From the IMG/VR virus record IMGVR_UViG_3300044948_000997, positions 62,001 through 126,000 of that record: a stretch of DNA of 64,000 nucleotides; one strand, written 5' to 3'. This document shows, in pieces, positions 33,482 through 63,413 of this stretch; within the stretch, counting starts at the first letter, position 1, and each line of letters begins with the position of its first letter. The notes beneath the pieces were generated by a model, which did not search any database, was not told where the DNA came from, and worked only from the letters and a program-made list of their open reading frames with translations. The stretch is from a virus. The translations under genes and the position numbers were made by a program.

Positions 33482-33979
33482 TTAGTATAATATTAATTTT
33501 TTTATTTTGTTAATTTCCTCAAATAAACCTAACGATGTGATTGGTGAAATTGATGATTTATGTGAATTACTTTTAATTAAATTTAATGGGGGTAACATAC
33601 TTGGTTTCTTCTTGTGTTTCTTTAAAAAACTATTTTTTCTTTCTCCGGTCATTGCACTCATTTCATCCGCATCTTTTCTACCTTCTTTTCTATTGACAAT
33701 CATATCTCTTTCACCATCTAAGAATTGTTTTCCCCAGTTATTCATTAAATCACCACCAGCCAAGTCATACTTAATTTTATCACCAATTTTATCAATATTT
33801 TGTAAGTCATGAATAATTCGTTTTAATTGACCGTATTTAACTTTTTTATCCGTTAATAATTTTTTAGCTCTTTGTAACCCATGTGCGTGAGACCCATTAA
33901 GTCCCATGACGGCATGATTTACATTATCTAAAATATTTTGTGGGATATCAAATATCCTCTTTTTTAATTCACTATTCAT
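33482..33979 (-). CDS. Basic helical protein with C-terminal tag
   Basis: 165 residues, lysine-rich. The first 100 residues are helical with LNGSHAHGLQRAKKLL and LKRIIHDLQNIDKIG. The C-terminus ends LFEEINKIKKLILY, another instance of the E-x-I-x-K-I-K tag. It overlaps the next upstream gene by 8 bases. Possibly a DNA-contacting internal head protein (inference). Confidence 0.6.
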   Translation of the reverse strand: MNSELKKRIFDIPQNILDNVNHAVMGLNGSHAHGLQRAKKLLTDKKVKYGQLKRIIHDLQNIDKIGDKIKYDLAGGDLMNNWGKQFLDGERDMIVNRKEGRKDADEMSAMTGERKNSFLKKHKKKPSMLPPLNLIKSNSHKSSISPITSLGLFEEINKIKKLILY

Positions 33980-34763
33980 TATCCTTTTTCAAATGTTTGA
34001 TAATATCATCTGCAGTTAATCCATTACTTTCTAAAGAATCTCTTAATGAATCTATTTGTCTTTTTATTATTGGGTTTATTTCTTTCTCTTCGTCTTGTTC
34101 CCCAACTTTAGAAACTAAATCGTTATCTTTTCTTTTTTTAACAACACTTTCAATATACTCCTCCATGAATTTTTTAGGATTCTCGATTAGTCTTACTTTA
34201 TCGGTTCCTTTTAATTTAGGGTCATATCCCATTGCTTCTAATCTTTCCATAGTTTCTTCGTGAGATAAACCTAATTCTTTTGTGAAATGGTTATAAGCTT
34301 CTTTAAAACTTTCATCACCACCCATGGTATCATCATAACCTAAAGCGTCACCCATTGCAATTTCTATAAGTTTTTCTTTACTTATTTCTTTACCCTCACC
34401 CCAATACCTTGTATAGTTTTGAATACCCAACGTACCATAATTACCTGACATACCTCTACCTGTTTTAACAACCTTATCCGTGATTGAATTTGATGTTACA
34501 CCTTTGGTATTTAAATCACCCGGTTTTTTACCACGAGCAATATTTCCGTTTTTATCTACAATTTCGTCAACCTCTTCTTCTTTTTCCACTTTATCAGGAA
34601 TTTTGGAATAATCGGTATCATCTGAATTTTCTTTCGCCCATTTCCCCCATTTACTCTTCTCTTTCTTAGGTTTACCCTTTTCATTTGCTTTCGCATAGAA
34701 GAATCTTTGTTGTGCTTTTGACGCAAATTTCTCTTCAATTACCTGTTTTATAAAATTATTCAT
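33972..34763 (-). CDS. Tagged phage protein with FASKAQQRFFYAK motif
   Basis: 263 residues. It begins MNNFIKQVIEEK, a short tag with IEE as a possible cleavage site, followed by FASKAQQRFFYAKANEKG and KWGKWAKENSD, a module seen in many phage proteins of unknown function. A helical domain follows (KELGLSHEETMERLEAMGYD). A late-type motif stands 15 nt upstream, so it heads this late minus-strand group. A virion-internal location is suggested by the tag. Confidence 0.6.
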   Translation of the reverse strand: MNNFIKQVIEEKFASKAQQRFFYAKANEKGKPKKEKSKWGKWAKENSDDTDYSKIPDKVEKEEEVDEIVDKNGNIARGKKPGDLNTKGVTSNSITDKVVKTGRGMSGNYGTLGIQNYTRYWGEGKEISKEKLIEIAMGDALGYDDTMGGDESFKEAYNHFTKELGLSHEETMERLEAMGYDPKLKGTDKVRLIENPKKFMEEYIESVVKKRKDNDLVSKVGEQDEEKEINPIIKRQIDSLRDSLESNGLTADDIIKHLKKDNE

Positions 34764-46367: not shown

Positions 46368-48854
46368 ATGGCAAATTCAAACAGAGTATTCGTTTCTCCA
46401 GGTGTATATACATCTGAGAAGGATCTAACATTCGTAGCGCAAAGCGTCGGAGTAACAACATTGGGTTTAGTGGGTGAAACCTTAAAGGGTCCCGCATTTG
46501 AACCTATTTTAATTGGAAACTTCGATGAATATAAAACATACTTCGGACCAACTTCACCTGAAAAATATGGTGACGGTAACCCAAAATACGAATTAGGGTA
46601 TGTTGCAAAATCATATTTACAAGAATCCAACCAATTATTCGTAACAAGAGTATTGGGATTAACAGGATATAAAGCAGGAAAAACATTCGGAATTAAAACT
46701 TTAGGTATTACGGGTAACACTTATGGAAACATTGTGGTTGCTGCGTTAAGATCAAGAGGACGTTATTCAGGTGAAACTTTAATATATGAAGTTACAGGTA
46801 ACACCTCATTTGAAATTGCTTCAGGTACAACTTTAGAATCAAATCCATTAGCCGAATTTACAATTAATGTAACGGGTGTAACTGGAGGTGCAAAATCATT
46901 CACTTGTAGTTTAGATACAACATCTCCAAAATTTATAACTAAAGTATTAGGAACTGCACCGTTTGATAAGGCTTATGGTGATGTACCACTTTACGTACAT
47001 GAAGTTTATCCAAATTTAAATTTAAACCTTTACCGCAAGGGTTCAATTAGTGGACTAAGTTTAACTGAGGTATATAACGCTGAAGGTAATAATTTTGCTG
47101 ACGGGTATAGTGCAGATGATTTATCTAAATTAGCTGCTATTTCACCAACTGTAGTTTCAGAAGTAAGAGGTGGTAAAGTTGACGAATTATTTGATGTCAT
47201 TACAATTTCAGACGGGGATACCGCAAATATTGAGGTTAAAATAACGATACAAAATATTAATTTAGATACTGGAGAATTTGATTTATTAGTTCGTGATTTT
47301 AATGACTCTGATGAAAATATGGTTGCGTTAGAGAAGTTTACAAGATGTAGTATGAATCCAGATGTTGCAGGTTATATCGCAAGAAAAATTGGAACATCTG
47401 ATGGTGAATATTCATTAAATTCAAAATATATCATGTTATCAATGAGTGATAATGCGCCTGTCGATGCATTTCCAGCAGGATTTAAAGGATTTGCAGGAGC
47501 AACAATCTCAGGGGCTACGTTAGGTAGTGTTTTATATAAAACTGAATTTTTTGATGCTGGAGATACAATATATACAGGAGCCACTCTTTCAGGTTATACA
47601 GGATTAACAAGTAGTGGTGACAAATATAGAAAAACGTCATTAGGTTTATCTTCTGATGGTTATTATAATTTTGATAGTGATTTATTTAAATATAAAGGTA
47701 CGGGTTCTACTATGAATTATACCAATGGATTCCATTTGTCAACAAACGCATCTTCAATCACAGGAACAACATATCAATGTACTCCATATGATTTAGAGGG
47801 TCAAAGTGGTGGAGATGGAAATAAATTAACATCTATTAACTATCGTAAATTCACATTTGCTGCTTGTGGTGGTCATGATGGTTGGGATATCTATAGACAA
47901 ACAAGAACAAACACAGACGCATATGTCTTTGGAAAAAATACATATACATCAGGTAATACAACTAATGGAGGGTTATTTGGAACAGCATTTGGTACCGCTA
48001 ACTCAGATTTATACTCTTATTTAAAGGGTATTGAAACATTTGCCAATCCTGAGGCTGTTAATATTAACGTATTTGCAACTCCAGGTATCAATTTCTTTGA
48101 CCACTCATCTTTAGTTACACAAGCTATTGATATGGTTGAAAATGATAGAGCGGATTCAATCTATATTATTGGTTCTCCTAATGAATCGGCTTCAGCAAAT
48201 GTTATTTCAGATTTAGAAGAACAAGGAATTGATTCTAACTATTCTGCAACATATTGGCCTTGGATTCAAGTAAGAGACACAGATAACGCAACTCAACTAT
48301 ATATCCCACCAACAGGTGAGGTTGTTAGAAACATTGCGTTGACAGATAACGTTTCTTATCCTTGGTTCGCGGTGGCAGGTTATTCAAGAGGTTTGGTAAA
48401 TGCAATTAAAGCAACCAAAAAATTAACTCTTGATGAAAGAGATGAATTATACAAGAACAGAATTAACCCAATCGCAACATTCTCTGATACAGGTACTATT
48501 ATTTGGGGTAACAAAACGTTACAAGTTAGAGAATCTGCTTTAGATAGAATTAACGTAAGAAGATTACTATTGAGAGCAAGAAAGTTAATATCAGCTGTAG
48601 CTGTTAGATTGTTGTTTGAACAAAACGACGACCAAGTAAGACAAGAATTCTTAAGATTGGTAAATCCAATTTTGGAAGCAATTAAGAAAGAGAGAGGTCT
48701 TTATGATTTCCGTGTAAGTGTATCAAATTCTCCTGAAGATATTGATGCTAACACATTGAGAGGTAAGATTTACATCAAACCAACTCGTTCTCTTGAATTT
48801 ATTGATTTGGAATTCATTATTACTCCAACAGGAGCTTCATTTGAAAATATCTAA
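46368..48854 (+). CDS. 18: Tail sheath protein (gp18-like)
   Basis: 828 residues; the contractile sheath subunit. The N-terminus SNRVFVSPGVYTSEKDLTF matches the gp18 start, and the C-terminus has the family core: INVRRLLLRARKLISAVAVR, VNPILEAIKKERGLYDF, then LEFIDLEFIITPTGASFEN. The middle carries extra surface domains (residues about 150-560) with Thr/Gly/Ser-rich loops, explaining the length over T4 (659). The gene has a late promoter with a 37-nt A-rich leader and ends at a strong terminator. Confidence 0.95.
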   Translation: MANSNRVFVSPGVYTSEKDLTFVAQSVGVTTLGLVGETLKGPAFEPILIGNFDEYKTYFGPTSPEKYGDGNPKYELGYVAKSYLQESNQLFVTRVLGLTGYKAGKTFGIKTLGITGNTYGNIVVAALRSRGRYSGETLIYEVTGNTSFEIASGTTLESNPLAEFTINVTGVTGGAKSFTCSLDTTSPKFITKVLGTAPFDKAYGDVPLYVHEVYPNLNLNLYRKGSISGLSLTEVYNAEGNNFADGYSADDLSKLAAISPTVVSEVRGGKVDELFDVITISDGDTANIEVKITIQNINLDTGEFDLLVRDFNDSDENMVALEKFTRCSMNPDVAGYIARKIGTSDGEYSLNSKYIMLSMSDNAPVDAFPAGFKGFAGATISGATLGSVLYKTEFFDAGDTIYTGATLSGYTGLTSSGDKYRKTSLGLSSDGYYNFDSDLFKYKGTGSTMNYTNGFHLSTNASSITGTTYQCTPYDLEGQSGGDGNKLTSINYRKFTFAACGGHDGWDIYRQTRTNTDAYVFGKNTYTSGNTTNGGLFGTAFGTANSDLYSYLKGIETFANPEAVNINVFATPGINFFDHSSLVTQAIDMVENDRADSIYIIGSPNESASANVISDLEEQGIDSNYSATYWPWIQVRDTDNATQLYIPPTGEVVRNIALTDNVSYPWFAVAGYSRGLVNAIKATKKLTLDERDELYKNRINPIATFSDTGTIIWGNKTLQVRESALDRINVRRLLLRARKLISAVAVRLLFEQNDDQVRQEFLRLVNPILEAIKKERGLYDFRVSVSNSPEDIDANTLRGKIYIKPTRSLEFIDLEFIITPTGASFENI

Positions 48855-49190: not shown

Positions 49191-49679
49191 ATGGCAGATT
49201 TACTAATGAAAATGCCGGTTCCATATGAACCGAAAAGAACAAACCGATTTATCTTAAGATTTCCATCTTCATTGGGGATTAATGAATGGTACGTGTTCTC
49301 AACATCTAGACCAAAAGCAAAAATAAAATCAGTAGAGATACCATTCTTGAATACTTCAACATACGTGGCGGGTAGATTTGAGTGGGAGGAAATGTCTGTA
49401 ACGTTTAAAGACCCAATTGGTCCTTCTGCATCACAAGCGTTAATGGAATGGTTCCGTTTACATGCTGAATCAGTTACAGGTCGTATGGGTTATGCTGCTG
49501 GTTATAAAAAAGACATTGAACTTGAGATGTTAGACCCAACAGGTGTTGTGGTTGAAAAATGGATTTTACAAGGTACTTTCTTAACAGGATTGAACTTTGG
49601 AGATTTGGACTACTCAAGAGACGATATTGCAACTATTCAAGCTTCTTTAAGAATGGATAGATGTATTCAAGTTTATTAA
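49191..49679 (+). CDS. 19: Tail tube protein (gp19-like)
   Basis: 162 residues, the same size as T4 gp19 (163). NRFILRFPSSLGINEWYVFS, VEIPFLNTSTYVAGRFEWEE, MSVTFKDPIGPSASQALMEW and LQGTFLTGLNFGDLDYSRDD are typical of the tube family. It stacks as hexamers inside the sheath to form the DNA channel. It is followed by a terminator and the tail chaperone gene. Confidence 0.95.
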   Translation: MADLLMKMPVPYEPKRTNRFILRFPSSLGINEWYVFSTSRPKAKIKSVEIPFLNTSTYVAGRFEWEEMSVTFKDPIGPSASQALMEWFRLHAESVTGRMGYAAGYKKDIELEMLDPTGVVVEKWILQGTFLTGLNFGDLDYSRDDIATIQASLRMDRCIQVY

Positions 49680-49764: not shown

Positions 49765-49784
49765 ATAGTATAAACTTATACTAT
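49765..49784 (+). promoter_or_regulatory. Inverted repeat over the tail chaperone start codon
   Basis: ATAGTATAA and TTATACTAT form perfect 9-bp arms around a 2-nt centre, and the right arm includes the AT of the ATG at 49783. It could act as an operator or fold the start codon into a hairpin. Confidence 0.55.
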
Positions 49785-50532
49785 GGAAGAATATAAAATT
49801 GACCCAACAATCGCATATGACGTTGTAGAATTACCTAGTCGAGGAATTTACTACGCCAACAACAAGAAATCACTCAAAATTTCTTATTTAACCGCTGCGG
49901 ATGAAAACATATTGGCAGCACCAAATTTAATACAGACAAATCAAATTGTTACAGAACTTTTAAAAAGAAAAGTTTTAGACAAAGATATGAATGTAGATGA
50001 TTTAATTGAAGAGGATAAACAAGCGATTTTAATATTTTTACGAAACACAGCATTTGGCACGGAATATAAGTTGACATTAACTGACCCAAAAACGGATAAG
50101 ACATTTGACATTGAGGTTGATTTAAGTTCATTGGATTTTAAACCATTTGATTTGGTTCCTGATGCAAATGGGGAATATTCATATTTTATGGAAAAAAGTA
50201 AAATTGATGTTACATTTAAATTTTTAACACAAAAACAAGAATTAGAAATAAAAGAAATTCAAAAGAGTTGGAATGGTAACGGGGTTGCACCAATTATCAC
50301 AAAACAACTTGAATTTATGATTAAATCAATTAAGGGTAACAGAGATATTATGAATATCAGAAACCTAATTGAAAATTTACCAATAAGAGATTCCCAAAGT
50401 TTCAGGAAATTTATCAACGATAAAAAACCTGGAATCAATTTAAACAAAAAAACAACGACCCCTTCAGGAGAAGAAATCCAATTTGAAATTGGGTTTGGGG
50501 TAGAGTTTTTTCGCCCTTTCTACGGATTATAA
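49783..50532 (+). CDS. Tail assembly chaperone/gp26-like baseplate protein (zero-frame product)
   Basis: 249 residues. ELPSRGIYYANNKKSLKISY, then NLIQTNQIVTELLKRKV, resembles the T4 gp26/baseplate-hub assembly family, and the position between tube and tape measure is that of tail assembly chaperones. A T6 run before a CGC codon near the end (50506-50514) would allow a +1 shift into a 49-codon frame. The shifted product would be 292 residues. The zero-frame product ends six codons after the slip site. Confidence 0.75.
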   Translation: MEEYKIDPTIAYDVVELPSRGIYYANNKKSLKISYLTAADENILAAPNLIQTNQIVTELLKRKVLDKDMNVDDLIEEDKQAILIFLRNTAFGTEYKLTLTDPKTDKTFDIEVDLSSLDFKPFDLVPDANGEYSYFMEKSKIDVTFKFLTQKQELEIKEIQKSWNGNGVAPIITKQLEFMIKSIKGNRDIMNIRNLIENLPIRDSQSFRKFINDKKPGINLNKKTTTPSGEEIQFEIGFGVEFFRPFYGL

Positions 50533-50662
50533 GCGAAATCAATTAACGGAGATACTATTTTTAGTGAAAAGAGGGTTTTCATATGGGGATATTATGTCAA
50601 TGCCAGTCTATGTTAGAAAATATTTTATTTCATTCATGATGGAATTAGAAAACTCTAACTAA
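50513..50662 (+). CDS. Frameshift extension of the tail assembly chaperone
   Basis: An open frame in the +1 register relative to 49783-50532, with no suitable start codon of its own. It encodes 49 residues with strong coding character: DYKRNQLTEILFLVKRGFSY, then DIMSMPVYVRKYFISFMMEL. The MPVY-x-R-x-YF pattern is typical of chaperone/baseplate assembly endings in T4-like phages. It stops 2 nt before the late promoter of the tape measure gene. It is read only by frameshifting at GAG TTT TTT CGC, or else reflects a one-base sequencing error in the T run. Confidence 0.72.
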   Translation, partial: ALSTDYKRNQLTEILFLVKRGFSYGDIMSMPVYVRKYFISFMMELENSN

Positions 50663-50675: not shown

Positions 50676-52562
50676 ATGGCAACAATTAATTGGGAAGAGG
50701 CGGGTAAAACATCAAAATCATTAAGACATGATGATAAACAATCCCGAGAATATGCAAAAAAGTTAAATAATGGTAACGATTTAACAATGGCAGAAACCGC
50801 GTCGTTTGCTAAGGGATATGTTGGTACCGGTAAAGAGACGTCACAAGTGTCTACTAACGTATTTAAAGGAGTTTTAGGTTCATTAAAATCACAAGAGGCT
50901 GGAGGTTCATATGGTGATAGTAAGGGGATTATGGGTGTTGACAAAATGGCCGAATTGGCATTTGATACCGAAGGTTCTTTTTTAAAAATAGATAAAATAA
51001 TCGGTAATATTGCAAAATATGGTTTAGAACAAGTAAATCAAGAATGGGCTAATCAAGCAACATTACTAACAGATGTTAATACTAAAACTGGTTTAACAGG
51101 TAAATTATCAAAAGATTATAGAGAAGAAGTTTCGGCAGCATATCCTGCATTAGCAAGGTTAGGTATTGAATATTCTGAATTAGCAAACGCAGCAGTTTCA
51201 TTAGTTCAACAATCTGGAAAGTTTAATTTAATAAATCAAGAGACGTTTGAGTCTATGGGTTTAGCAGCTAAAGCCTATGTTGGTAGTTTGGCTGAAGTTG
51301 TTGAAATGATACCTGGATTTGAAAGGGTTGGTATTGGTGCAACGGGAGTTGTTAAATCGGTGTCAGAAGCTGGTGCAAGATCATTAACTCTTGGTTTAAA
51401 TTCACAAAAAATCACAAAAGAATTGGGTCAAAATATTGGATTATTGAATTCATACGGTTTTCAAAATGGTGTTCAAGGACTTGAAAGAATGGTTCAAAAA
51501 GCAACCGAGTTTAGAATTAGTATTGCTGAGGTTTCTAAATTGGCGGATAATGTGTTCACACCTGAAAAGGCCATTGATTTGGCTGCAAATTTACAAGTGT
51601 TAGGTGGAGCAATAGGGGATTTTAACGACCCACTTAAATTAATGTATATGGCCACGAATAATGTGGAAGGTTTACAAGATGCGTTAATTGGTGCTGCCGG
51701 TTCATTAGCAACATATAATCAAGAACAAGGAAGATTTGAAGTAACAGGACTTAACTTAAGAAAGGCAAGAGAAATGGCTCAAGCGTTAGGTGTTGATTAT
51801 AAGGAACTAACCAATGCTGCGGTTGCGGCACAAGAAAGGTTAACAGCGGGAGAATCTTTATCAGGACTTAGTATAAAAGCGGAAGATAAGGAATTCTTAA
51901 CAAATATTGCACAGATGAAAGACGGTAAAATGACCGTCGCATTACAATCTAAAGAATTACAAGACTATTTTGGTAAAACGTCTGTAGCGTTGGAAGATTT
52001 ATCATCATCACAAGCTGATAAGTTATTGGATTATAAAAAAGAATTTGAAAAATTACCACCAGAAGAAATTGTTAGAAAACAAGCCACTGATATTGAAAAT
52101 ATTAGAAGAGATTTAACTTTCTTAGTTGCATCTGCAAGACTTGAGGGTACTAAATTAATAAAGGCGGTTGCGGATAGTACTGGATTATCATTAGAAAAAG
52201 CTGCGAAATATGTAAAAGATATGACAGGTTCAAGTGAGTCCGAAGTTAAAAAACAATTAGCACAATTAACTGCTGAACAGAAAAAAGATAATGATAAAAA
52301 GGCTCAAAAAGTTAATGTAAATGCCCCAAAATCAAACGAAAATATAACCGCAGAACAAGTTAAGAATGCTGCCGATAAAAAAGTTGCAGACGCAGGAAAC
52401 TCAACACGAAATGTAAACATGAATATTAAAACTGAAGTTCAAGTTCCTGCGGTTATGGACGCACTTCAAAGAGAAATTGTAAAAGACCAAAGTTTATTCT
52501 CAAGTTGGGGTGCAAAAATAGATTCGGAGTTAACAACACCTTCAGTTGCTAAAGGAAGATAA
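50676..52562 (+). CDS. Tape measure protein
   Basis: 628 residues, helical, close in length to T4 gp29 (590), so the tail should be of similar length. It has a minor-tail/tape-measure look: Ala/Gly-rich helices (EYSELANAAVSLVQQSG, LNLRKAREMAQALGVDYKEL) and a central hydrophobic region (GLAAKAYVGSLAEVVEMI). The last 100 residues are Lys/Asn-rich and probably contact the tube end. Position directly after the tail chaperone supports the call. Confidence 0.82.
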   Translation: MATINWEEAGKTSKSLRHDDKQSREYAKKLNNGNDLTMAETASFAKGYVGTGKETSQVSTNVFKGVLGSLKSQEAGGSYGDSKGIMGVDKMAELAFDTEGSFLKIDKIIGNIAKYGLEQVNQEWANQATLLTDVNTKTGLTGKLSKDYREEVSAAYPALARLGIEYSELANAAVSLVQQSGKFNLINQETFESMGLAAKAYVGSLAEVVEMIPGFERVGIGATGVVKSVSEAGARSLTLGLNSQKITKELGQNIGLLNSYGFQNGVQGLERMVQKATEFRISIAEVSKLADNVFTPEKAIDLAANLQVLGGAIGDFNDPLKLMYMATNNVEGLQDALIGAAGSLATYNQEQGRFEVTGLNLRKAREMAQALGVDYKELTNAAVAAQERLTAGESLSGLSIKAEDKEFLTNIAQMKDGKMTVALQSKELQDYFGKTSVALEDLSSSQADKLLDYKKEFEKLPPEEIVRKQATDIENIRRDLTFLVASARLEGTKLIKAVADSTGLSLEKAAKYVKDMTGSSESEVKKQLAQLTAEQKKDNDKKAQKVNVNAPKSNENITAEQVKNAADKKVADAGNSTRNVNMNIKTEVQVPAVMDALQREIVKDQSLFSSWGAKIDSELTTPSVAKGR

Positions 52563-60600: not shown

Positions 60601-63413
60601 ACGCTATATCTGATACGGGTTCTACTATTTTTAATGCAAATGTAACCGGCGGTACAATAAATGCTAAAACAGAAACTTATGGTGACGGTATAAAGTACCA
60701 CACCACATTTGTTAATAATTCAAAAACAGATCCCGACCTTTACAAATTTTATACCTTATTACCTTCAGTAGGTGGTAACCCAAAAGAAAGTGCACCTTAT
60801 AGTGTTTCGGGATATGAGTCAAAAATACAATCAAGTTTTAGAGTTGTGTGGGTTGACGATGATATTAAAACAATAGATTATAGTGGAGCAACTTTTCCAA
60901 GTTATAATCAATATGTTAAATCATATGTTAGTGAAACTATTAAAACAGATGATAACAAATTTGGGTTAGGTTCGGACTATAGAAAAGTGATGGATTTAAT
61001 TGGAACTTTTAGTCCATCAATATTAGATGAATTTGAATCTTGTTTTATTGAATTTTCAACAGAGAAAGTTAATGAAGAAATACCTTATCACAAATTTCCA
61101 CCGTATACAGGAACAACAAAGGAAGTTTACACATTAAAATATGATAAGTTTCAAGATTTATTAAAAGAAATTGTTACTGTACCAATAGACACCCAAACCG
61201 ACCCGGCCGATTCTGGTGAGTTAATTAAAAGTTTAAAAACTAAACAATTAACTAAATTAGAATTAATAACCGCAGAAATGTTAAAGGCTGATAATTTAAT
61301 CAAATTAACTATGGGTAATCCAAAAGAGATTAACCCTAATGTTTGGTATGGTTTGGCTAAATTTGATAATGTTAACACATTTAATTATGGAACATATAAT
61401 TTAACAACACAATCGGGAGATACAAAATATGTGGAATTATATGTTGGACCATATGTAAGCGGAACCTCTATTAATAACGAGTACTTAAATTTTTTCAAAG
61501 ATTTAAATATTGAACTTAGTGAAAGTAATGTTCTTCAATTTAGACCATTAATACTAATATATGCTGGTTATATTAAAAATGGAGGTACAAATACGTTAAC
61601 CGCATTTAGAACATATCTTACAGATAATGTACTAACCAAAGCGTCGGATAGATTGTCAATTTATTTAGTACAGTTAATTGGAAAATTTAGTTCATTAAAA
61701 ACCAAAGAAAATAAAAATCAATTAACTGTTTTTAGTGGATTTAATGATCAAATCCTAAAACTTGAAGAATATAATTATTTTAAAACATTTAATGATAAAT
61801 GGGTTTCAGGTAATTCATTAGGTAGTAGGTCATTAATGGAAGAATTTTTATTCTTTGATAAGGCCAATAAAGATATTGGTGACGTTGCATATATTAGTTT
61901 AGAAAAATTATTACCATTAGATGACCGTAAAAATGATAAGGCTAATTTATATAGTGTAATATCTATGTTAATCCAAGGAACTGGTTTTGATATGAGAGCA
62001 TTACCAGCATATGTTAATTTTTATGGAACTAATGTTAATGGTAAATCTAAAACAACATCTTCTAAAAAAGTCGCAGAAAATTTGTTCGGAACATTTTTAG
62101 ATGTTGATTACCAAGAATCCTCACCAAAAATTATTATTCAATATACAGGACCCACATCAAAAAGATTGGAGTTGTCTGACATTGAGGCAAAGGAAAATAA
62201 ATTTAAAAACGATAGTGGTAACTTATTTGCAAACGCACAAAGTCCACTTGTTGTAACAATAGATGCTGGTAACCAAGTCGGTGATTTATATAAATCAAAT
62301 AAGGTGGTTGCTTTTGAAGTAAGTGTTGGAGATGAAAATCAAGCGTTATTTAAAGGAGTTCAACTTGACCAATCCTCACAAAGAGAAACAACTGAATCAA
62401 TGGCAGCAACCGAAAACTTAGGTCGTTCAGAATCGGGTGCTGGTGTTTATCAATTAGACACAAGTTTGTTTGATATCTATAGATTGAGGTCATATACTTG
62501 TGAGGTAACAATGATGGGTAATGTAATGATACAACCAACAATGTATTTCTACTTGAAGAACATACCAATGTTTAGAGGTTCATATTGGATAACCGAAGTT
62601 TCACATAATATAAAACCTGGTAATATTTCAACCGTATTTAAAGGAACAAGAATACCATATACTTCTTTACCCGACCCAAAAGATTCTTTTTTATCAAGTT
62701 ACAGAGTGTTATTTGATAAAATAACTAAGGCGGCACAAAATAGAGTTAAGGAAGAAAATTTAGTATTATCAGGAGATACAAAAACTGAAAAAATACTTAA
62801 CACGAATAACGGAGCACTAATCATTGATATGGGTGACCCTAAAGTTGCACCTAAAGGAGAAAAATTACAATCCACATCAGGAGTTAATGAATTTGGAGTT
62901 AATTGGGGAGGTAGAAATGGTGAAAAATATATTCAAGAAGTTGAATATAATGGTATCAAATATCTTAGAGCAATTGCTTGTGTTATGGGAGGTAAAAATT
63001 ATACACCCGATAACGATATTGAAATGTCAATTATAAATCGTGTTACAACTAAAACAATATCAGGTACTACAATTTTAAATAAAATGACCTATCAAGATAT
63101 TAAGGATAATAAAACAAATCAATTCTATTCAATGAAGTTTGATTTATCATCTTCTTTTCCAAGTTTAATTATAAGTGCTAAAACAACATTTGTAAATCCA
63201 AATGGGACAAAACCCAAAACGGTTATAGTTAAACCACTTCAAATTGAAAAACCAACCGACAATAGTGTAATTAGGCCGGACAATATATGGGGTCCAATTC
63301 ATAGAGGACCAAATGTCTCGGGTTTTGGAGTTGCATTATCCAAGAAATTAATGACTGATTTAGGATTAACTGACGGACAAGTTGTTTATTTTACAATGGA
63401 GAAGGGATATTAA
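57636..63413 (+). CDS. Giant baseplate hub-type protein
   Basis: 1925 residues, the largest gene in the window. The N-terminal 250 residues (NINVKGSNFIPQVNINFVDV, then LPWPIFYLTVKGYYGKAIRY) and the region near 1620-1670 (LRSYTCEVTMMGNVMIQPTM, then ITEVSHNIKPGNISTVFKGT) look like the two beta-barrel parts of a gp27/gpD-type hub, split by over 1300 residues of insert. It would sit around the spike trimer. The C-terminus has a small separate domain ending in VYFTMEKGY. No peptidase or lysozyme motif was recognised. Confidence 0.65.
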   Translation: MANNNLNSGENILVKVDQNNVILIDPNSVSNGPNVEMRNVKQENLVMYVNLEADLVPRTTLAASGDGSAQSTLLTVAKGNLSFLRAQDGQDLNTGWTDSFFNSTEKTQTVTDKNGKKTPVGTGEFFQADSSGQSFGIESININVKGSNFIPQVNINFVDVRGKTLFESPNNTPYKAFFHLPWPIFYLTVKGYYGKAIRYRLHLTKFTSKYNGSNGNFDISTTFVGSTYAFLNDIPLEGILNAPYMYMIENDGKNSTFNTNTGTYQKKISKSSRGYTLLRTIYSEYKQKGLLPKNFPVKTLREVITIAKSLDNILEREIFDQKVDMKIFNGIKEFEKIVQDFESAVVQWGKKYLSNDSYTDATSKIKYYYLSGQNNGKLDNITNATDNKTLEFILTNKVKELRKTADFSSSYINKSGIDFKQQTFNFLNKIKDISKYYQPKEGKYSIAYDLLLSDIYEIQKSFLAQRDKLQKYVEEVMNQVIKDPLKGIGFKPTIRNIFGVIMANADVYIRLLKDVHTKSFEASSKRKDLVNNYSNESEGDNIYPWPEIRKITSNKQSVIAYPGDSDLRAILRADDKTMWPEVDFIENYQSVATKRTDPLAEKEGGVGAINYVFESNSPDINLNKTATLFQIESSQPYMDKSMAGLLYEIFERARYSTLLDSYNSQTIIELANNEFDNLQKILEEDFDIVDIMKTINSASTLTDYMLSFSPFDRYPYFQDKLPTIPYIKNLEEFPFKISQYNIDSNPSRNENYTKLIEELKNYQPESYRKNIYPFNSSLYLNYLNKTDYNLDDLNLRNITNVDTTEGLVSTARDSKMWVKSEYTKNLFLQNFNIVQSNGKTNILNTPYFHKQLYTDFKKSSPLGKYSGSAYLLLNSLPFKDLEDKVLQDQTRMSSLFKEIGASHYVPYHLMLKWGAIYHRYKKKILEDVDILSGFLTNNITQPISGSTLFDFGVGSTYTINSESITHSSSKHIGLHPFYDSIFHQIVNNYAISDTGSTIFNANVTGGTINAKTETYGDGIKYHTTFVNNSKTDPDLYKFYTLLPSVGGNPKESAPYSVSGYESKIQSSFRVVWVDDDIKTIDYSGATFPSYNQYVKSYVSETIKTDDNKFGLGSDYRKVMDLIGTFSPSILDEFESCFIEFSTEKVNEEIPYHKFPPYTGTTKEVYTLKYDKFQDLLKEIVTVPIDTQTDPADSGELIKSLKTKQLTKLELITAEMLKADNLIKLTMGNPKEINPNVWYGLAKFDNVNTFNYGTYNLTTQSGDTKYVELYVGPYVSGTSINNEYLNFFKDLNIELSESNVLQFRPLILIYAGYIKNGGTNTLTAFRTYLTDNVLTKASDRLSIYLVQLIGKFSSLKTKENKNQLTVFSGFNDQILKLEEYNYFKTFNDKWVSGNSLGSRSLMEEFLFFDKANKDIGDVAYISLEKLLPLDDRKNDKANLYSVISMLIQGTGFDMRALPAYVNFYGTNVNGKSKTTSSKKVAENLFGTFLDVDYQESSPKIIIQYTGPTSKRLELSDIEAKENKFKNDSGNLFANAQSPLVVTIDAGNQVGDLYKSNKVVAFEVSVGDENQALFKGVQLDQSSQRETTESMAATENLGRSESGAGVYQLDTSLFDIYRLRSYTCEVTMMGNVMIQPTMYFYLKNIPMFRGSYWITEVSHNIKPGNISTVFKGTRIPYTSLPDPKDSFLSSYRVLFDKITKAAQNRVKEENLVLSGDTKTEKILNTNNGALIIDMGDPKVAPKGEKLQSTSGVNEFGVNWGGRNGEKYIQEVEYNGIKYLRAIACVMGGKNYTPDNDIEMSIINRVTTKTISGTTILNKMTYQDIKDNKTNQFYSMKFDLSSSFPSLIISAKTTFVNPNGTKPKTVIVKPLQIEKPTDNSVIRPDNIWGPIHRGPNVSGFGVALSKKLMTDLGLTDGQVVYFTMEKGY

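Follow-up and report, generated by a model that had tools for sequence, protein, structure and literature searches.

Does a single tail assembly chaperone gene in this viral genome give rise to two products through a +1 ribosomal frameshift? The gene lies in a 64,000-nucleotide window, the whole stretch of DNA that was analysed, which covers positions 62001–126000 of a 129,722-base viral contig. Its sequence very probably specifies two tail chaperones, a short form read in the zero frame and a long form made by a minority of ribosomes that slip into the +1 frame. The locus contains the following features, numbered from the start of the window.

49783–50532, plus strand: zero-frame short chaperone (TAC-N, 'G'), 249 residues; PF12322 and phrog_150 matches, stop conserved in relatives
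50497–50500, plus strand: GGGG 5′ of the slip site, possible stimulator; GGG codon conserved in close relatives
50509–50512, plus strand: putative slip site TTT_C, where the P-site Phe codon TTT would re-pair on TTC after a +1 step; conserved slip codon
50512–50514, plus strand: CGC, the zero-frame codon that would wait in the A site; rare codon, no contig tRNA found for CGN
50513–50662, plus strand: +1 extension (T-like domain), 49 codons plus stop; codon-position differences, predicted helices and gp51 profile match
50530–50532, plus strand: zero-frame stop TAA, by direct reading

The zero-frame open reading frame (49783–50532, plus strand) encodes 249 residues and ends at 50503–50532 with the codons GAG TTT TTT CGC CCT TTC TAC GGA TTA TAA. 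Two adjacent Phe codons (50506–50511) are followed by CGC at 50512–50514, and six sense codons, from CGC to TTA, precede the TAA. If TTTC is decoded as a single Phe step, reading continues for 49 codons past the slip to a stop at 50660–50662 and yields a product of 292 residues. The first-pass annotation had proposed a +1 shift in a tail assembly chaperone gene. Its zero-frame codons and its stop six codons past the slip site agree with direct reading, and the coordinates and lengths of its 49-codon continuation and 292-residue product are also right.

The zero-frame protein matches PF12322 (T4_baseplate; E 1e-8, 35.6 bits against a curated cutoff of 24.5) and phrog_150 (E 1.6e-11). Judged from this homology, the gene at 49783–50532 is a T4 gp26/gp51-type tail assembly chaperone gene. 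It is located 3′ of the sheath and tube genes, among the following neighbours.

46368–48854, plus strand: tail sheath gene; phrog_23 (E 3.4e-68) and Pfam sheath domains
49191–49679, plus strand: tail tube gene, gp19-like; phrog_4542 (E 1.9e-23), 36% identity to its Flavobacterium phage immuto counterpart
50676–52562, plus strand: 628-residue open reading frame, a tape measure candidate by position alone

The identity of the tube gene is certain. The 628-residue reading frame matches no PHROG or Pfam family and shows no similarity to the immuto tape measure protein by BLASTP; in the immuto record, a tape measure gene is annotated at the matching position. The chaperone gene is placed between a tube gene upstream and, downstream, a putative tape measure gene suggested by its position. 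Homology and gene order together uphold the chaperone assignment that had been made from the sequence of the window.

The two-frame arrangement is conserved across related loci. All 80 relatives found in a first round (66–100% identical) keep the 249-residue zero frame and the +1 extension, barring contig ends. Three wider scans extended the set to 279 loci in which the end of the zero frame can be read; 274 of them have enough sequence past it. In 270 of these 274 loci the +1 frame stays open for 100 nt or more beyond the zero-frame stop, far more often than chance would allow, and the other four have a −1 extension. Among 218 distinct anchored sequences, 214 carry TTT or CTT at the slip codon with T or C as the next base. 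The four exceptions are L085, in which TTT_C sits one codon earlier; L204, which is misanchored and contains TTT TTT CGT; and L232 and L233, both −1 loci. At the slip codon L231 is counted as canonical, yet its extension is in the −1 frame. Clustering at 60% identity gives 35 clusters, of which 34 are canonical throughout; at 80% identity the canonical slip site is retained in 149 of 150 clusters, which come from many samples. TTC never occupies the slip codon in the anchored +1 sequences, although it does occur at the first Phe codon. Background usage (CTT, 416 of 2651 Leu codons; CGN, 299 of 1211 Arg codons) does not account for the codon choice at the slip site. The +1 frame in relatives, on which the earlier reading had been made to depend, is therefore present, and the conservation of the frame and the slip codon, together with selection on the extension (see below), supports the +1 shift that had been claimed.

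Several departures from the common pattern were also observed. L218, L221, L223 and L227 keep the +1 extension and have lost the slip motif; TTY AAT CCC AGT is found there, which suggests a CCC_A slip instead. A Bacteroidaceae metagenome-assembled genome (L406) contains CTT TTT CGT near the stop, with no recognisable extension. Bacterial genome bins contain more cases of the +1 arrangement, including a WOR-3 chromosome (L405).

Cultured phages carry the +1 arrangement as well, at TTT CTT TGG in Flavobacterium phage immuto, TTT TTT TGG in Microcystis phage Mel-JY01 and Rhodothermus phage RM378, TTC TTT CGT in phage GXN1 and TTT TTT CAC in Bacillus phage SP-15. An internal fragment of the +1 reading frame is annotated as a separate hypothetical gene in immuto (L082:4354-4464), SP-15 (L089:3812-3931) and RM378 (L088:3701-3877), and the +1 part of the GXN1 record is without any annotation. 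The +1 reading corrects such annotations: in several phages the C-terminal piece had been treated as a small gene in its own right.

The extension behaves as a coding sequence. Past the zero-frame stop, the differences per site at positions 1, 2 and 3 of the +1 codons are 0.29, 0.19 and 0.49, and by this pattern the +1 frame is under purifying selection. Direct searches of PHROG and Pfam gave no match to the extension; no direct phrog_634 match was found in the seven records that lie outside the cyanophage-like and T4 group, and an HMM of the fused family searched directly against T4 gp51 gave only a weak match. Profile–profile comparison was used in place of that direct search. The extension profiles of groups A, B and C match one another (98, 97 and 90%, with A–B at 98% and A–C at 97%). 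The cyanophage gp51 profile is matched by group C at 93% and by group A at 70%, and T4 gp51 by the cyanophage profile at 96% and by group A at 64% (E 6e-5), with column-shuffled controls below 2%. The match to T4 gp51 falls at its C-terminus. From these profiles, the extension appears to be remotely related to the part of T4 gp51 that gp26 lacks. The zero-frame protein and the +1 extension were modelled separately with AlphaFold2. The zero-frame model has a pLDDT of 88.5, and the extension is predicted to form three helices (pLDDT 91.7). Among the Foldseek matches listed, only the HK97 tail assembly chaperone structure 2ob9 reached an appreciable probability (0.63, E 0.53), a weak but fitting match. 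The other listed matches, actins among them, had low probability and were ignored.

The same two frames could be connected in other ways. A −2 shift on the T6 run, as in Mu, would enter the same frame and had been offered as an alternative by the first-pass annotation; the six T residues in the window do permit Phe-tRNA pairing at −2. In relatives, however, TTT CTT Y occurs in 21 distinct sequences and TTC TTT C in 11, and at these sites a P-site tRNA moved by −2 would face a mismatch, UUC for Leu or UCU for Phe, while re-pairing at +1 is preserved. RNA polymerase slippage on the run would produce mRNAs of other lengths. A homopolymer is present for it, although six T residues are short for known transcriptional slippage and the variants TTC TTT CGN and TTT CTT TGG, with only three consecutive T residues, retain the arrangement. 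Because these variants break the T6 run and keep the arrangement, both explanations are disfavoured: the −2 shift is unlikely, and polymerase slippage is even less probable.

Alternatively, the +1 reading frame could be a small gene of its own, with ribosomes re-initiating near the zero-frame stop. In immuto, SP-15 and RM378, short genes that share its stop are annotated, as is gp51 in cyanophages, and some ATG, GTG or TTG is available in 175 of 215 sequences. The remaining 40 of the 215, however, lack all three codons over the stretch between the preceding +1 stop and a point 20 codons after the slip, the conserved frame starts at the slip site itself, and T4 gp51 is a natural in-frame fusion of the two parts. 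A separate gene is accordingly a poor candidate, ranking between the −2 shift and polymerase slippage. Frameshifts next to homopolymers are common artefacts of sequencing and assembly, and a decayed gene could look alike, yet the canonical slip site recurs in nearly all of the 80% identity clusters. Since all 80 first-round relatives have the same arrangement and the T run varies (TTC TTT, TTT CTT) while the +1 arrangement persists, the T6 run is not a product of misassembly, and the probability of error or decay is negligible.

A +1 ribosomal frameshift remains by far the most probable explanation. The anatomy of the site, its conservation, the selection on the extension and the homology are direct results; that a shift occurs, its forward direction in the ribosome, its efficiency and the roles of the two products are inferred from them. 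Most ribosomes would stay in the zero frame and release the 249-residue short form. With the P-site tRNA-Phe on TTT (50509–50511) and CGC waiting, a minority would step one base forward, re-pair on TTC and read on in the +1 frame to make the 292-residue long form with its three-helix C-terminal domain. Across the +1 loci, a P-site tRNA on UUU or CUU would move to UUC or UUU during a pause at a slow A-site codon. By analogy with lambda gpG/gpGT, coating of the tape measure protein may fall to the short form and recruitment of tube subunits to the long form.

The codon that would wait is very rare in the window. In its long open reading frames CGC has a frequency of 0.17 per 1000 codons and is the second rarest sense codon; the tRNA-Arg found on the contig has the anticodon TCT, which reads AGA/AGG, and the contig tRNA search found none for CGN. 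In relatives the corresponding codon is CGT, CGA, CGG, TGG, TAC or CAC, so extreme rarity is no general requirement. The rarity of the waiting codon proposed earlier thus holds for this window and does not extend to the family. The contig carries four tRNA genes outside the window, for Met, Arg(TCT), Ser(TGA) and Asp(GTC) (L401:5743-6565), and a phage tmRNA gene, also outside the window (L400:13937-14333; contig 33937-34333, minus strand), with the tag ATSNVAVA and a score of 81 bits for Rfam RF00023.

Upstream of the slip codon, GGGG is placed at a distance of 8 nt and is a possible stimulator. Among 114 close relatives, 107 have a GGG codon here, against a background of 339 GGG among 1850 Gly codons in the chaperone genes; it occurs in 38 of 77 sequences in group B and is not among the common codons in group C. 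A Shine–Dalgarno (SD)-like upstream motif is present in just 1 of 36 long open reading frames. Downstream RNA structure is not convincing (mean z −0.4 in group A and −0.8 in group B), and an Rfam search at the frameshift site found nothing.

The T4 and cyanophage branches of the family appear to obtain short and long chaperones in other ways. T4 gp26 and gp51 both match PF12322 and phrog_150, and gp51 alone additionally matches phrog_634 over its C-terminal 100 residues, which makes them paralogs of which gp51 is the longer. They have been described as short and long chaperone genes, gp26 (TAC-N) and gp51 (TAC-NC) (Vladimirov, Gautam and Davidson 2022, as relayed in PMC10885494 and PMC12846349). 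T4 shares with the window phage the family and, as predicted for the latter, a short and a long form, the long one adding a C-terminal domain that appears to be related. T4, however, has two separate paralogous genes in place of one gene with a +1 shift, and its gp26 ends with TTC TTT GAG without an extension. The gp26/gp51 genes of Kyanoviridae cyanophages, HTVC008M and phiM12 likewise belong to the family and have Phe-Phe near the 3′ end and a homologous shifted-frame extension, but there the extension is in the −1 frame at U UUU UUC. In P-SSM2, syn9, HTVC008M and phiM12, the gp51 domain lies 3′ of gp26 in the −1 frame, and T TTT TTC with an open −1 frame was found in all 64 distinct relatives of P-SSM2. 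The cyanophages appear to slip the opposite way at matching codons. Neither this −1 solution nor the relation to T4 gp26/gp51 was visible to the first-pass annotation. For T4-like chaperone genes, −1 signals of the poly-T kind have already been noted (PMC12846349). The window does not have the arrangement of a canonical −1 heptamer, its extension being in the +1 frame, and a −1 extension is limited to 4 of the 274 loci.

In a tree of the zero-frame domain, a branch with 100/100 support divides the +1 group from the main −1 group, with which the T4 duplicates are placed. The exception is L084 (LR756511), a −1 member nested on the +1 side. This 595-kb phage has a −1 extension with an irregular-looking junction, and it may be erroneous or contain a site of another kind. 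A single family probably shifts in opposite directions at homologous Phe-Phe codons: forward (+1) at YUU_Y with sense codons in a large branch of phages with hosts from Flavobacterium to Bacillus, lacking the close SD and the stop codon of prfB; −1 at U UUU UUC in cyanophage-like members; and two genes in T4. The +1 branch at homologous codons appears to be new, no description of it having been found in the literature searched, which was largely without subscription papers.

Tail chaperone frameshifts, including that of lambda gpG/gpGT, have been reviewed (PMC5009743). As in the G/GT case, the window has one gene with a short product and a conserved shifted-frame extension near its 3′ end, located between a tube gene and the reading frame in the putative tape measure position; unlike lambda-type shifts, which are mostly −1, the shift here would be +1. 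A +1 shift in a tail chaperone has been suggested for haloarchaeal HSTV-2 (PMC5009743), and forward cases exist in SEA-PHAGES annotations (PMC10885494). Listeria phage PSA also uses +1 frameshifting within its structural operon, but at CCC in the capsid and tail shaft genes (PMC5009743). In prfB, the P-site tRNA steps forward on CTTT or TTTT, with an SD-like motif at a spacing of 3 nt (PMC12421855). The slip codons of the +1 loci, nearly all followed by T or C, permit the same +1 re-pairing, as in immuto TTT CTT TGG. They differ from prfB in having a sense codon (CGN, TGG, TAC or similar) rather than a stop codon in the A site and in lacking an SD-like AGGGGG 3 nt upstream; the GGGG at 8 nt is not universal. 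F. johnsoniae, a Flavobacterium in which SD sequences are seldom used, shows low prfB frameshifting (PMC12421855).

T4 was regarded in a 2016 review as the exception to the conserved tail chaperone frameshift (PMC5009743). The present survey suggests that T4's own chaperone family frameshifts in most of the branches seen, in two directions at matching codons, which makes it a natural system for asking what sets the direction of a frameshift. The family also suits the question of whether a short-to-long ratio can persist by different means. No general motif had been identified for +1 shifts at sense codons (PMC10885494); the family provides a large collection of such sites, and hundreds of related phages conserve the identical slip position.
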